Shown here one piece after another: positions 5,041 to 50,712 of a stretch of 64,000 nucleotides of DNA. Position 1 is the first letter of the stretch, and each line of letters opens with the position of its first letter. The notes beneath the pieces were generated by a model that saw nothing but the letters and a program-made list of their open reading frames with translations, was not told where the DNA came from and ran no database searches. The DNA is taken from contig JANXAL010000116.1 in NCBI GenBank assembly GCA_025062325.1, positions 1 to 64,000 on the forward strand, given 5' to 3'. The DNA is from Roseiflexus sp. Its GTDB lineage: Bacteria > Chloroflexota > Chloroflexia > Chloroflexales > Roseiflexaceae. Made by a program: the position numbers and the translations under genes.

Positions 5041-6065
5041 AACTCGATGCAACGCTGATGGTCGATGCACGTCGCCTCAATGAAGCGGGCAAAATTGCGC
5101 GCGCCGCCGAAGCTGTGGGATTCGCTGCGCTCTGGACGCCGGAGACCCGGCATAACCCCTTTCTCCCGCTGGTGCTGGCGGCTGACCATACCGCTGAAAT
5201 CCAGTTAGGGACGGCCGTGGCGATCGCGTTTGCGCGCAGTCCAATGGTGACGGCGCAGATCGCCTGGGATCTGCAGGCGTTTTCGGGAGGGCGCTTCATT
5301 CTGGGGCTGGGAACGCAGGTGAAGGCGCACATCGAACGGCGCTTCGGCATGACCTGGGACCCGCCGGTGCCCAAATTGCGCGAGTACATTCAGGCGTTGC
5401 GCGCGATCTGGCAGGCGTTTCAAACCGGCGGCAAGCTCGATTATCGCGGTCAGTTCTACAACCACACCCTGATGTCGCCGTTTTTCAACCCCGGTCCAAT
5501 CGCCGATCCATACATTCCCATTTACATTGCCGGCGTCAATGAAGGACTGGCGCGGCTGGCAGGCGAGTTGTGCGACGGGTTCCACGTCCATCCCTTTCAC
5601 AGTGTCAAGTATATTAATGAGATTGTCCGACCGCAGGTGGCGGCTGGCGCGGCAAAAGCGGGGCGCGATCCGTCGCAGGTGAGCCTGACGAGCAGCGTAT
5701 TTCTCATCACTGGTCCCGACGAGGCGAGTATGGAAAGCGCCCGCGCGTTTGCGCGTGAACAGATTGCGTTCTACGCCTCGACGCCAACCTACCGTGTGGT
5801 GCTGGCGTGTCACGGCTGGGAGGACGTCGGCGAGCGGCTCTCGCGCCTAGCAGCCGCGCGGCGCTGGTCTGAGATGGGAGCGCTGATCACCGATGAGATG
5901 CTCGACGTGTTTGCCGTCACAGCGCCGCTCGACCGGATCGGCAAAGCGCTGCGCGAACGCTATAACGGCGTTCTCGATCGGGTCGGCAGTTACCTGCCCT
6001 ACACGCCGGGTCCGCTCGATGATGTGTGGCGGCAGGCGGTGCGCGACGTGAGCGGCGGGGAATGA
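5037..6065 (+). CDS. LLM-class (luciferase-like) F420-dependent oxidoreductase
   Basis: Cytoplasmic TIM-barrel flavin/F420 oxidoreductase of the luciferase-like monooxygenase superfamily, 342 residues. Family features include the N-terminal barrel strand (KLDATLMVD), the conserved [23 protein letters not shown] segment split by a short loop, and [29 protein letters not shown]. It resembles the subgroup annotated as TIGR03617 F420-dependent enzymes. The substrate is unknown. The start ATGA overlaps the hisB stop, so it is cotranscribed and probably translationally coupled with hisB, although no link to histidine synthesis is known. Confidence 0.85.
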
Positions 6066-12557: not shown

Positions 12558-13571
12558 TTAGCGACTCTCCTTGATCAGGCGATTCAGTTTCCGATAGGTG
12601 TGCCAGAGGATGGCAATCTTGCCGGTGAGCGGAACGTAAGCGCGCTTCTGGAAGACGTCGTAGTCATTGGCGACGATGCGCGGCAGAATCCCGCGATAGA
12701 TTTCCGCTGCCGCAGCAATAGCCATGCGCCCGTCAGGATCGAGCAGCGCTATGCCGGGCCAGGACTCATCGTACAGCGCGTGGGCGCGTTCTATTTCGAA
12801 ACGCATCAACGCCCGGAAACGATCATCAAGCCGACCCTGGAGGATGTCATCATCCGTCAGACCGAAACGGCGCAAGTCTTCCTGGGGAAGATAGATCCGA
12901 CCGCGTCGCGCATCTTCGCCGACATCGCGCAGAATGTTCGTCAGTTGAAGCGCCACGCCCAGTTTCACCGCGTATGGCGCTGCGCCATCACGATACCCGA
13001 TGATGTGCATCGAGAGCAGCCCGACCACCGAAGCGACGCGGTAACAATAGAGCCAGAGATCATCGAACGTCTCGTATCGGTGGACGGTGAGATCCATTGC
13101 AATCCCGGCCAGCAGTTCGTCGACAAGGAAACGCGGGATAGCGTAGCGTCGCACCGTATCGTCCCACGCGAGCAAGACCGGGTGATCGGCTGGCGGACGC
13201 GGTGCGTGAACACGCGCTACCCAGTTGGCAAGCGCACGCGCCGGGTCGTCAGTGGCGCGATCAACAGTATCATCGCTGGTGCGGCAGAACGCGTACAGTG
13301 CGCGCACTGCCAGACGTTTTTCGCGTGGCAAGAATTGCGAGCTTAGATAGAAACTGCGTGAGTTGATACGCGTGATCTCGACGCAGTGCCGGTAAGCCGC
13401 GTCGAGCGTCAGCGACGGCAGTGCGTCGATGGAATGCGTCTCATACCCGATCACGTCGGGTTCAGCTAGATGACGCAGGCTGGCGAGCAGGGCCGCAGCA
13501 TCGCGGATCGGCGCTTCGCGCTCGCCGAAAGCTCGAACCGATATGCTGGCGGAGTGTTGGAGCGATGCCAT
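12558..13571 (-). CDS. crtB: phytoene synthase (squalene/phytoene synthase family)
   Basis: Condenses two geranylgeranyl diphosphates to phytoene, the first committed step of carotenoid synthesis, at the membrane. ATG 13571 gives 337 residues. The first Asp-rich motif is CRTSDDTVDRA and the second LTNILRDVGEDARRGRIYLPQEDL, both complete; SRSFYLSSQFLPREKRLAVRALYAF is the family signature. HpnC/HpnD-type squalene synthesis is the alternative, but the CarH-type regulator directly upstream on the same strand favours carotenoids. It is separated from that regulator by 315 bases, so it probably has its own promoter. Confidence 0.85.
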   Translation of the reverse strand: MASLQHSASISVRAFGEREAPIRDAAALLASLRHLAEPDVIGYETHSIDALPSLTLDAAYRHCVEITRINSRSFYLSSQFLPREKRLAVRALYAFCRTSDDTVDRATDDPARALANWVARVHAPRPPADHPVLLAWDDTVRRYAIPRFLVDELLAGIAMDLTVHRYETFDDLWLYCYRVASVVGLLSMHIIGYRDGAAPYAVKLGVALQLTNILRDVGEDARRGRIYLPQEDLRRFGLTDDDILQGRLDDRFRALMRFEIERAHALYDESWPGIALLDPDGRMAIAAAAEIYRGILPRIVANDYDVFQKRAYVPLTGKIAILWHTYRKLNRLIKESR

Positions 13572-13886
13572 GGCCCCTGTCCTGGAACTATCAATTCTGT
13601 TACTAATGATCAACTGCTCAGTTACAGGAAAGGCGTATCAATCGCCGTGCTCCCCCATTCCGTGCATCGAATGCCAGCGCTATCGGAAAGTGCGCACACT
13701 TGCAACAATAACACACTGTCCCTGTGCAACGCCTTCTGCACAGAGCTTCACAGCATACCCCGCTTCTTGGCCAGGTGCGTGCAGACCAAGGCACGCTGGC
13801 TAGTTATCCTTATGCAAGAGCGCCCTCATGACGATATTGTAGCGCTATTTGCGCGAATGGTTGTCAACCATGAGGTGTTACGAGCA
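13572..13886 (-). other. crtB upstream region
   Basis: 315 bases between the CarH-type gene and crtB. I see no copy of the 11-bp repeat found at the regulator's own promoter, and no convincing -35/-10 pair. Probably holds the crtB promoter. Confidence 0.4.
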
Positions 13887-14837
13887 TCATAGGGGGATGG
13901 ATGTACCATTGCTTGACATGATTGCGCTGACGGTTTGCACCAGTTCGCGCGCATCGCGGCCAAGGAAGATGCCCGGAATAGCAGTGCACAGTTCGGGGTT
14001 GACATTGAAAATGCGTCCGCCATACCCAAAGTGAACCTGCGGGAACTCTTGCTGAACAGCTCGTGCCACTTCCAGCAGGTTCATCGCTGTTTCGAGCGTC
14101 GAAGCCGACAAACAGACCAGTTTTGGCTTGACTTTGCGAATAGTTTCGAGCAGGTCAGTGAGCGGCACCTGCGCCCCAAGGTACACGACGTGCCAGCCGC
14201 GCCGCACCAGGAAAAGACTGGCGAACATGATTCCCAGGTCGTGCAGTTCCTGTGGTGCACACCCAACCACAATCGTATCGCGCTGCGCCTGGTTCTCGAA
14301 TACGTTCAGCAAACTCGCCAGTTTTCGTCGCATAAACTCGGTGGCAAAATGCTCCGCTGCGACATTAATTTCGCCCCGATGCCAGCGTTCACCGATCTCC
14401 ACCATCGTCGGCTGGATCAGATCGAGCAGCACCTGCTCGAACGGATATAGTGCAAACGCCTCTGATACTAAGCGTTCAGCTTTCTGCGCATCGAACGTTG
14501 TCAACGCGACCACAAGCTCCTCGACGATGCAATCAATCGAACGGGTCGCGTCCAACTCGGCTCGAGGAGGCGTCTGATCGATCACGCTGGTCAGCAGCAT
14601 AATTGCATGGCTGATATTGACGCCTTCCGCCGTACGATCGCGCAGCCAGCGGATAATAGCAATGTCGCGCTCCGAGTAGAGACGGTGGCCGCCAGGCGTG
14701 CGTTGCGGGCACGGGATGCCGTAGCGTCGCTCCCAGGCGCGAAACGTGTCTGGCGGAACGCCGGTCTCACGTGCAACTGCTTTCGTATTGAAAACGGGCG
14801 CTGTCGAAAGTTGCCCGAGAGCTGGAGGTTGCGCCAT
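13887..14837 (-). CDS. carH: MerR-type regulator with B12-binding photoreceptor domain (CarH-like)
   Basis: N-terminal MerR winged helix (TKAVARETGVPPDTFRAWERRYG, with PGGHRLYSERD), a four-helix B12-cap region, then a Rossmann cobalamin-binding domain. The cap has WHRGEINVAAEH, an exact W-x9-EH, the signature residues that contact adenosylcobalamin in CarH/LitR photoreceptors. The cobalamin domain has ELHDLG (ExHxxG) supplying the lower-ligand His. Known CarH proteins are tetrameric repressors in the dark and release DNA in light. ATG 14837 has an SD-like GAGGG; ATG 14855 would add six residues. Two 11-bp tandem repeats lie between promoter and start. Placement upstream of crtB supports carotenoid control. 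Confidence 0.88.
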   Translation of the reverse strand: MAQPPALGQLSTAPVFNTKAVARETGVPPDTFRAWERRYGIPCPQRTPGGHRLYSERDIAIIRWLRDRTAEGVNISHAIMLLTSVIDQTPPRAELDATRSIDCIVEELVVALTTFDAQKAERLVSEAFALYPFEQVLLDLIQPTMVEIGERWHRGEINVAAEHFATEFMRRKLASLLNVFENQAQRDTIVVGCAPQELHDLGIMFASLFLVRRGWHVVYLGAQVPLTDLLETIRKVKPKLVCLSASTLETAMNLLEVARAVQQEFPQVHFGYGGRIFNVNPELCTAIPGIFLGRDARELVQTVSAIMSSNGTSIPL

Positions 14838-14866
14838 TGCAGTACGATCCCTCATGCGATTGTTAA

Positions 14867-14888
14867 GTTCTCTATATGTTCTCTATAT
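14867..14888 (-). promoter_or_regulatory. two tandem 11-bp repeats, candidate CarH operator
   Basis: GTTCTCTATAT occurs twice without a gap (ATATAGAGAAC on the coding strand). The block lies at about +5 to +26 from the predicted start site of the carH-like gene, so a bound oligomer would block transcription. Characterised CarH operators are also built of 11-bp direct repeats. A weaker TACAGA half-site lies just upstream. Confidence 0.6.
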
Positions 14889-14899
14889 TCCGATTCTGT

Positions 14900-14928
14900 A
14901 GATTAGCATAACGCACACCTCTTGTCAA
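14900..14928 (-). promoter_or_regulatory. promoter of the carH-like gene
   Basis: On the minus strand, TTGACA (14928-14923), a 17-base spacer, then TAATCT (14905-14900): near-consensus sigma-70-type promoter, 63 bases before ATG 14837. Confidence 0.75.
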
Positions 14929-14952
14929 AGCCTTGCACAGGCATGGGTGCTA

Positions 14953-15840
14953 TCACATCAGACGTGCAGCTACAAGATCCCGCACGGCTGCCAGTCCACG
15001 ACGCACGAGAGTCCAGGAGCGACCGCGATCTGTACTCATTGCGACCTCTCCTGCGGCAGATGCAACAAATGCGGTATCGATATGGTACCTGGCAGACGTG
15101 AGGACCGTTGCTGCGCCTGTCCAGGGAAATGCCGCGATCGCTGGCTCCCAGCCGTCGAGAGAACCGCGTGCCGTTCCGCCGTCCGCGAGCGCTGCGATCA
15201 GCGTTGGCGTTGCACTTGCCAGTATGGTAAAGGCAATTGCTTCACCCGGCATGCCGTCGATCAGGCGCCAGCCCGCACGTTCACCGACGTACACGCGCCC
15301 CCCGACGAGCGCGCAAAGGGTTTCCGCTGCTCTAGGCGCCGCAATAAGCGCGAAAGGAGCGTCCGGCAACAACGTGCCATACAATTCCCAGGTTGCGCCG
15401 TGATTGTCACTCGCCAGCACCTGCGCACCCAGTGCGCCGTAGAACCGTCCTGCATCATCGATGGCGAACGCGCCATATGCGCCGGGAAGCGCAATCCGCT
15501 GCCAACTAGCGCCCGCATCATCGCTGATGAGCAGTATGTTGCCTGCCAGCAACCCGACAAATGACGGTTGGCGCGGAGCGCTATACAGCGCAGCCCCGGG
15601 CGCCAGCGGGTCGCCGATGGGCAGCTCAGTCCACGTCTGAGCGCCATCCGTGCTGCGATGCACCCGTCCATCGGCGATGACCAGGGTAATCAGCGGATTG
15701 GATCCATCGACCCAGACCGAGTGCACCGTCGATCCCCGCAAAGTATGAATGCTGCGAACCCAGCGTCCCTGACCAGCGGGATTGCTGAGGAGCGCTAGAC
15801 CGTCATCGGTTGCCAGAAACAGCAGCGTGGCTTTTGCCAT
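14953..15840 (-). CDS. BNR/sialidase-like beta-propeller protein
   Basis: Predicted beta-propeller of 295 residues starting at ATG 15840 (MAKATLLFLATDDG). At least four BNR-type Asp-box segments recur: STDGAQTWTEL, SDDAGASWQRI, SDNHGATWELY and STDRGRSWTLV. There is no signal peptide, so it is probably cytoplasmic. It resembles YCF48-like and other WD40/YVTN-type propellers used as scaffolds, and sialidase catalytic residues are not evident. Function unknown. It lies in a minus-strand run downstream of the methyltransferase gene, with a 73-base gap, and ends 25 bases before the carH promoter. Confidence 0.75.
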   Translation of the reverse strand: MAKATLLFLATDDGLALLSNPAGQGRWVRSIHTLRGSTVHSVWVDGSNPLITLVIADGRVHRSTDGAQTWTELPIGDPLAPGAALYSAPRQPSFVGLLAGNILLISDDAGASWQRIALPGAYGAFAIDDAGRFYGALGAQVLASDNHGATWELYGTLLPDAPFALIAAPRAAETLCALVGGRVYVGERAGWRLIDGMPGEAIAFTILASATPTLIAALADGGTARGSLDGWEPAIAAFPWTGAATVLTSARYHIDTAFVASAAGEVAMSTDRGRSWTLVRRGLAAVRDLVAARLM

Positions 15841-15913
15841 TGGAGTTCTCTCCGCAGTACAGCGCTTCCAGCATCTCCTAGGAAGATTGACTAGAAGGCG
15901 CAAAGCTTGGCGG

Positions 15914-16783
15914 TCACTCTGTCCCTCTGCGTCCGTCCTTCGGCGGAACCCTCTCAGACTGTGGAGAGGGAAACGCCAGTGTGAACAACACAATGCCGTG
16001 CTGTTCGTCGCGCTGTGGATACAGCCCGGCGGCACGGAAGCGTTGAAGCAACTCCTCACGCGACCAGAACACGATACCGCCTGCAGAAACAGCGAACTGT
16101 ACGGCGCGACCGACAGCACCCTGCGCCGTAAGCAATGTCATTGCCACGAAGCGGCCGTCGTCGGTGAGAATGCGACGCACCTCACGCAGGCAGGCGTCAA
16201 GGTCACCGATCTCGTTAAGCGATCCGCCGATCGTCACACCGGATGCTGCACCGCTGGCAACCGGCAACGCCTGGGCCGACGCGCGCAGGTACGAGACCCG
16301 CACTCTAGCGGCGCGCGCGCGCTGGCGCGCTTCCCGTAGCATCGGCAGCGCATGATCGACTCCGATCACGTGACCTGGGGCGTAACGTATAGCCCGCGCC
16401 AGCGCGCGCGCGTACAGGCCATTCGAGCAGGCGACATCAACGAACAATCCGCCGCGCGCCGCATCGACCCACTCCGTTACCAGCGCCAGCTCGCGCTCAT
16501 ACGGGAACGATTCGCCGCTGAGCAGAGTCAGTGCGAAGGGACGCCAGAGTCGTTCGTATGCCCAGGCGGTCGCTGGAAGTTCGTTCGTCAATTGCGCGAT
16601 CGTCGGTGGACGGGGACGACCAAGGAAATCGGCAATCCCGTCGCGGATAGGGTAGACCGCACCACAGCCGCAGTGCAGCCCGCCAGCCACAATCTCGCCA
16701 TGAGCCTCGCAACGTGAGTCACGAAGATCGAGCGCGCCAGAGCATGTCGGGCAGCGCAACCATGGCAGCACTTCCTCATCCAT
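15914..16783 (-). CDS. SAM-dependent methyltransferase with N-terminal zinc ribbon
   Basis: Class I methyltransferase, 289 residues from ATG 16783. The N-terminus has a Trm112/YcgJ-like metal-binding ribbon: CPTC (~10-13), then CEAH and HCGCG (~45). Motif I is FVDVACSNGLYARAL (~105), and GVDHALPMLREARQRA carries the acidic ribose-binding residue. SLNEIGDLDACLREVRRILTDDGRFV is the usual motif IV-VI region of UbiE/BioC-like enzymes. Substrate unknown. Its start overlaps the end of the DUF309 gene by 8 bases, so the two are coupled. Confidence 0.82.
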   Translation of the reverse strand: MDEEVLPWLRCPTCSGALDLRDSRCEAHGEIVAGGLHCGCGAVYPIRDGIADFLGRPRPPTIAQLTNELPATAWAYERLWRPFALTLLSGESFPYERELALVTEWVDAARGGLFVDVACSNGLYARALARAIRYAPGHVIGVDHALPMLREARQRARAARVRVSYLRASAQALPVASGAASGVTIGGSLNEIGDLDACLREVRRILTDDGRFVAMTLLTAQGAVGRAVQFAVSAGGIVFWSREELLQRFRAAGLYPQRDEQHGIVLFTLAFPSPQSERVPPKDGRRGTE

Positions 16784-48854: not shown

Positions 48855-50579
48855 TTACATTGCAATCGATCCCTTGCGAAAATGCGTCTTGCCGATCAGG
48901 GCGTTGACTAGCACTGGTTTGCCCTGGGCTGCGGTCTGACGCGCTCGGTGCAACGTCTCTTCCGCCAGTTCCGGGTCGTCGAGGCGATAGCCGACAGCGC
49001 CGAAGCCGCCCGCCACGCGGTCGTAGTCGCTGTACGCCAGCGTGGTGGCCACGTCGTCGTGCAGAATCTCCACCTGCTCGCGTGCAATCTGCGTCCAGCC
49101 AGCGTCGTTGCCTACAATAGCGACGAGCGGAACATTATGGCGCACAAAGGTGTCGAATTCGACCAGACTGTAGCCAGCGGAGCCATCGCCATAGAGGAGC
49201 CAGACATCCGCATCAGGCCGACAGAGTTTTGCGCCGAGCGCAAATCCCGCACCGACGCCAAGCGTGCCGAACGGTCCCGGATCAAGCCAGCTCAACGGAC
49301 GCGGCGGACGCACGATGTACGAGGCCGTCGCCACGAAGTCGCCGCCGTCGGCGACAATAATGCTGCGCTCGGTAAGCGCCTCATTGATAACCCTGCAAAG
49401 ATAGACTGGATTGACATACGCAGTTGGTTCGGCGGCTTGGCGCACGATTTCAGCCTCGCGTGCAGCATCGCGCTGCCGCAATCGGTCGATCCACTCCCTC
49501 CAATGTTCGCCGGGCAGCACGCGCTCCGCCAGCCTGCAGACGAACCGCGCCGGGTCTCCCAGCACGGCAATGTCAGGTCGTCGGTTGAGCGTCAGATCGG
49601 CGCGGCTGCGGTTGGCGGCAATCAGCGTAGCTTGGTGCGAGATGTGGTTGCCGTAGTCCAGGCGGAAATCGCATGGAACTCCGGCAAGGATGACCAGATC
49701 GGCTTCACGCAGCGCCTCGCGCCGCCGGTGTCGCATCTGTAACGGGTGGTTCGTACCGAGCAGCCCGCGTGCCGTGCCGGAAAGGTATGTAGGAACGCCG
49801 AGCCGGGTAATGGCGCCTGCCAGTGCGTCAACCGACGTCGTATCAAGCACTGCCTGGCTTCCCGCCAGCAGCAGCGGACGCTGCGATTGCACCAGACGGA
49901 GCGCTGCCGCACGCACAGCACGGTCTTCTGGATCCGGGACATCGACAGGGCGCGGCGTCACAACCGGTTGATCTCGAGCGCCAGCGAATAACCGGTTCAC
50001 CCGCCAGTTGAGATACCGTTGCACGACCCATTGCGCTGGAGAGCGTCTACGACGATTGAGGCCGTACCACTGGCGCACCAGTTGTTCATCGTACAAAAGA
50101 TCGACCGGCAGTTCAACAAATACCGGTCCGGGCACACCGCTGCGCGCCTGGTAGAACGCCTCTTCCAGCGTTGGAACGATATCGCGCACGCGCTCGACCG
50201 ACCGGCGCCACTTGGTGATCGACTGCATCAGCGCTATCTGGTCGATATCCTGCAGTGCACCTCGTCCACGCAGGGCAGTCGCTGCTGCGCCGCCGATCAC
50301 CACCAGCGGCGACTGCGCCATCTGCGCATTCTTGATCGCCGTGATCGTGTTGGTGACGCCAGGACCAGCCGTGACCACTGCAACGCCAGGCACGCCGGTC
50401 AGCCGCGCAACGGCATCGGCAGCGAACACGGCAGTCGCCTCGTGGCGCGTGTCGATCACGCGAAGGCCGCGTTGACGGCAGCCAACCAGAATAGGTGCAA
50501 TATGCCCGCCGGTCAGGGTAAAAACAAAGCGCACCCCGTGCGCTTGAAGCGCTAGCGCCACGTAATCGCCGCCGTGCAT
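48855..50579 (-). CDS. thiamine-diphosphate-dependent enzyme (acetolactate synthase-like)
   Basis: ThDP enzyme of the ILVB/oxalyl-CoA decarboxylase/2-hydroxyacyl-CoA lyase superfamily, 574 residues from ATG 50579, with GGAG upstream. N-terminal pyrimidine domain with catalytic Glu in [11 protein letters not shown] (~45), central domain (~190-330), and C-terminal PP domain with [19 protein letters not shown]...GND (~436-465), the ThDP-Mg motif. The substrate cannot be told: it could be 2-hydroxyacyl-CoA lyase-like rather than a true acetolactate synthase, as no ilvN or ilvC is adjacent. Confidence 0.85.
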
Positions 50580-50712
50580 ATGGTCTCCTTCGGCTGCACA
50601 GAGAATGCACATACTCTGCCGTAACTGACGGTAGTATACTGCATGTCACACCGCGTCATACGTGCGGTTGATCGGCAACCTAGCACACTATACAAAGCAG
50701 GAGGACACTATT

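Follow-up and report, generated by a model that had tools for sequence, protein, structure and literature searches.

The carH-crtB locus

The window, that is, the whole 64,000-nucleotide stretch of Roseiflexus DNA analysed here, carries on its minus strand a 322-codon open reading frame, carH (13887–14855), and, downstream on the same strand, the phytoene synthase gene crtB (12558–13613; SQS_PSY, 2.2e-82). Translation of carH probably starts at the second ATG (14837; MAQPP...), as conserved in orthologues, and the conserved start of crtB is probably at 13571 (MASLQHS...). The best NCBIfam model for crtB is CrtB, with a score under the cut-off of that model, and crtB is the only gene of the SQS_PSY family found in the genome. 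In those Roseiflexaceae loci that extend far enough to include crtB, the order and orientation of the two genes are conserved across many genera. Upstream of carH lies a gene for a BNR/Asp-box repeat protein (14953–16119), the position of which is conserved while its sequence diverges fast (28–70% identity), its neighbours being better conserved.

The carH product, hereafter CarH1, exceeds the Pfam cut-offs for MerR_1, B12-binding_2 and B12-binding, that is, it comprises a MerR DNA-binding domain and the four-helix and Rossmann domains that bind B12. Its top PDB sequence match is Thermus thermophilus CarH (TtCarH, or LitR; phmmer, 1e-36), and full-length TtCarH (5c8f, 5c8d and 5c8e) also heads the Foldseek matches of the AlphaFold model (pLDDT 85.5). 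The motifs on which the original prediction of a CarH-type regulator was based, W158-x9-E168-H169 and E203-x-H205-x-x-G208, align with W131, E141, H142 and H177 of TtCarH, in which His177 is the lower ligand of cobalt, Trp131 and Glu141 contact the adenosyl group, and His132 is the ligand of the light state (PMC10442372). Equivalents of all five residues (W131, H132, E141, H142 and H177) are present in CarH1 and are kept in the remaining orthologues checked. In particular, His132, which completes the bis-His light state, is retained in every one of these orthologues, which had been filtered on the Trp and on ExHxxG, not on His132. The fold, the domains and the full set of light-switch residues thus support the assignment of the protein to the CarH-type B12 regulators.

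Nevertheless, CarH1 is a divergent CarH, judging from the replacement of interface residues and from its score of 182 bits, against a curated cut-off of 400, with the equivalog model TransRegCarH (NF052513), which is still its best-scoring NCBIfam model. Of the TtCarH interface residues R176, D201, G160 and G192 (PMC10442372), only Gly192 is kept, Arg176 being replaced by Leu, Asp201 by Gln and Gly160 by Asn. The same positions vary in myxobacterial CarH proteins and so are not a strict criterion (PMC9304148); given these replacements, CarH1 could be a dimer or a tetramer.

Direct repeats at the carH promoter

The predicted carH promoter is present on the minus strand as TTGACA (14923–14928) and TAATCT (14900–14905), separated by a 17-bp spacer. 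In an alignment of 20 orthologous promoters, the −35 hexamer is invariant, TTGACA being the anchor of the alignment, and the TA and final T of the −10 are invariant as well. Some 12 bp downstream of the −10, near +5 in the 5′ leader, lies the pair of exact tandem 11-bp repeats reported in the original prediction (ATATAGAGAAC twice; 14867–14888, minus strand). This pair is the sole perfect tandem 11-mer of the window, against an expectation of about 0.015 (64000/4^11), and therefore exceeds what random letters give. Its period of exactly 11 bp, its uniqueness in the window and its position near +5 would suit a roadblock model in which CarH binds downstream of the promoter. However, the repeat was not found upstream of the 19 carH orthologues examined, which come from several genera and include loci with proteins 90–93% identical to CarH1; a search of its own genome with up to 3 mismatches returned a single match, a private copy; and the repeat contains no TnnACA, the half-site of CarH, and its score on a half-site matrix is 2.6 bits, versus 17.7 bits for the array over the −35 described below. 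We consequently reject these repeats as the operator and regard the roadblock model as very improbable; the pair is probably a recent, incidental local duplication.

The array in question consists of three in-register 11-bp direct repeats, TGTGCAAGGCT / TTGACAAGAGG / TGTGCGTTATG (14907–14939, minus strand), with the −35 within the middle copy. The orthologous carH promoters share the consensus TnTGCR-N5-TTGACA-N5-TnTGCR: TGTGCA or a related hexamer stands 11 bp before TTGACA, and TGTGCR or TTTGCA stands 11 bp after it. Certain lineages have TACACA or a degenerate sequence as their upstream copy, with another TGTGCA 22 bp upstream. Within the spacer between the −35 and the −10, all 20 promoters have T at both +11 and +13, G at +14 and C at +15, where conservation would not be expected of a plain promoter, which argues for the array. 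Published CarH repeats follow nnnnTnnACAn, one of them containing the −35, and in myxobacteria a relaxed form, N4-T-N2-RCR, is used (PMC9304148); the middle copy in the window fits the former, and the outer copies fit the latter. At the level of sequence, then, the carH promoter has the tandem 11-bp direct repeats that characterize CarH operators.

The array is the top matrix score in the window, although the matrix was made from orthologue half-sites that included the window site and its relatives, so that the absolute score is partly circular and genome-wide array counts serve as a separate line of evidence. The runner-up, at 13.2 bits, is a TGTGCA pair (50595–50622, minus strand) at the start of a thiamine-diphosphate-enzyme-like reading frame (48855–50612), and is probably due to chance. 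Taken together, these observations make the array over the −35 the likely CarH operator and autoregulation of carH through 11-bp direct repeats likewise likely. In this respect, the anticipated self-control would stand, at the promoter of carH itself, but with repeats other than those first proposed.

Arrays across the family and a second CarH

With no mismatch allowed, the pattern TnTGCR-N5-TTGACA-N5-TnTGCR has 15 matches in 26 genomes of the family, where about 0.2 would be expected under even base composition. Twelve of these are at carH; the other three lie before a GGPP-synthase-like gene (L124), an MFS transporter gene (G008) and an SRPBCC-like gene named by eye (G002). When one mismatch was permitted, the reversed control also gave some matches. 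A similar array occurs at carH of the relative G014, a genome without a reaction-centre match. The TTGACA-centred promoter array at an MFS transporter gene (L038:4647–5930; G000 contig C20) is conserved in another genus (G008, L123); the MFS orthologue of the window genome, 66% identical, has the array with one mismatch. Separately, a one-mismatch array lies near 6014–6200 of L039 (G000 contig C40) at a TetR-like gene that stands ahead of an HlyD/ABC efflux set, and similar sequence is found in three congeners.

Three exact TnTGCA copies in series yield 15 matches, some of them overlapping, in 11 genomes, versus none in the reversed control. Six genomes have them in the gap between divergent puf and carH2 genes, and three have them ahead of a polyprenyl (GGPP-type) synthase gene; in G006 they precede pufBA-pufC-bchG-bchP, and in G025 an array lies near a bchD-like gene. 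The G025 array is at L114:4198 (contig C3), near the start of the gene for the Mg-chelatase subunit D-like protein, the reading frame of which has an uncertain start. Among 17 upstream regions of polyprenyl synthase orthologues that had not been found through the array pattern, 5 have an array at a shuffle P of at most 0.01, where 0.2 would be expected, these regions being phylogenetically non-independent; for the window genome's own copy of this synthase, the search gave no match at the threshold applied. Thus, with regard to the suggested search for the repeat at other promoters, no further copy of ATATAGAGAAC was found in its genome, whereas arrays similar to that over the −35 do occur at photosynthesis and pigment genes in this genome or relatives, and a CarH-type regulon extending to photosystem genes is plausible on these patterns. 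Several further candidates were set aside: pairs of TnTGCA in the own genome (16 versus 5 control matches, mostly intragenic) are too noisy; a site upstream of PucC at C75 is weak (one mismatch, 340 bp upstream); and the extra matches of relaxed TnTGCR triples (G014 C6, G019 C233 and C281) look like chance, the controls having matched as well.

The carH2 genes encode a second CarH family, CarH2, which forms a clade with 100/100 support, is 43% identical to CarH1 in the window genome, and is found in most genomes that bear a reaction centre, usually adjoining puf. None of the 18 CarH2 sequences has His at position 132, which is occupied by A, I, L, V or M; His177 is kept wherever the sequence covers the position. 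One such paralogue (L040:6115–7116; G000 contig C45:12614–13612) is divergent from a puf/bch operon and has lost His132 naturally; in the G000 genome it also has H142R. The puf-carH2 intergenic array of G000 comprises four repeats (TACACA/TATGCA/TATGCA/TGTGCA) and is conserved into another genus; in the window genome, it lies directly upstream of a promoter-like TTGACG-18-TATAAT of puf. Before carH2 itself, only a partial TTGACA-N5-TACACA was seen in the g9 loci read, not significant in most of them, and these arrays were discarded. The H132A variant of TtCarH still binds AdoCbl but mostly remains a tetramer in light (PMC10442372). Given this behaviour, the loss of His132 and the retention of His177, we predict that CarH2 binds B12 and that light releases it weakly or not at all.

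A probable cobalamin-dependent switch in a phototroph

We consider it probable, with good confidence, that carH encodes an autoregulated, AdoCbl-dependent dark repressor and photoreceptor acting on the −35 array, a regulator of known kind in a new lineage. In the dark, AdoCbl would be held by His177 as lower ligand together with Trp131 and Glu141, and CarH1 would oligomerise and bind the three direct repeats, blocking RNA polymerase. In light, the Co-C bond would break, His132 would take the cobalt and the oligomer would fall apart, so that carH is transcribed; crtB would then rise by read-through or from its own promoter.

It is at this last step that an alternative bears on crtB and, being confined to it, remains compatible with the dark-repressor reading. 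Although the linkage of carH and crtB holds across Roseiflexaceae, its use for control, as originally envisaged, is less clear: a scan of the carH-crtB gap (140–330 bp) in 19 loci revealed no direct-repeat array and hence no second operator before crtB, and an alignment of the gap contains a conserved block with a −10-like TACAAT (13836–13841, minus strand; TATAAT in other Roseiflexus), which suggests that crtB may have a promoter of its own. Control of crtB, if any, would therefore proceed by read-through. That crtB has an unregulated promoter and lies outside the response, with carH controlling only itself and unlinked genes, nonetheless appears unlikely, given that the two genes keep their adjacency and orientation in many genera and that no terminator-like site was found on the minus strand of the region scanned.

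The light response raises another question. The final light state of TtCarH requires O2 (PMC10442372), which complicates derepression by light in an organism that is expected to be phototrophic without oxygen; indeed, the genome carries reaction-centre genes, as the predicted phototrophy would have it. CarH1 could then be mainly a B12 or redox sensor, with AdoCbl supply or oxygen tuning the carotenoid genes. However, the retention of His132 in all CarH1 proteins checked, and its loss in CarH2, make selection on photochemistry likely, and we judge a mainly B12- or redox-sensing role decidedly improbable. Rather improbable, too, is that the −35 array is a genuine operator with the puf-linked CarH2, or both proteins, as its main ligand, as with Myxococcus CarA and CarH, which share sites or one operator (PMC9304148). 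Arrays of the TnTGCA type are found at the loci of both CarH1 and CarH2, but the sites differ, TTGACA-centred at carH1 versus TATGCA-rich at carH2-puf, and carH arrays are present in three genomes without a CarH2 match (G001, G006 and G014).

More tentatively, and with doubt somewhat outweighing confidence, the dark-repressor reading might be extended to a two-protein CarH system of Roseiflexaceae that would act through 11-bp TnTGCA arrays on both photosynthesis and carotenoid genes. The crtB-linked CarH1 would be the light switch, and CarH2, divergent from pufBALMC-bchGP and naturally devoid of His132, would govern the reaction-centre operon as a B12 regulator that is insensitive to light or altered. 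If so, the type-II photosystem of Chloroflexota would be under direct cobalamin control, independent of PpsR/AerR. To our knowledge, the regulation of pigment and reaction-centre genes in filamentous anoxygenic phototrophs is poorly known, and a literature search found no paper on CarH in Roseiflexus. If the arrays before the puf, GGPP-synthase-like and bchD-like genes are functional, cobalamin sensing by CarH would reach beyond photoprotection to assembly of the photosystem, with CarH2 as a naturally occurring equivalent of the H132A mutant. A conserved and readable operator opens the way to direct binding tests and to prediction of the regulon.

Among known systems, TtCarH resembles CarH1 in domain order, fold, the residues W131-H132-E141-H142-H177 and, as regards the likely operator of CarH1, a row of three tandem 11-bp repeats, one of which contains the −35. 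By contrast, CarH1 is about 36% identical to it, with R176, D201 and G160 replaced, has outer repeats of TnTGCR rather than TnnACA, and adjoins crtB in a phototroph. Myxococcales CarH and CarA share with the present system variable direct-repeat operators, including the relaxed N4-T-N2-RCR, two paralogues per genome and carotenoid linkage, but here the gene of the second paralogue runs divergently from photosynthesis genes, and its product is without His132. We know of no AerR that is a MerR protein with a tandem-repeat operator of its own. As far as PMC6199135 and PMC5362033 outline it, the AerR/CrtJ system of purple bacteria similarly applies the logic of a B12 photoreceptor to photosystem genes, although AerR works through the transcription factor CrtJ.
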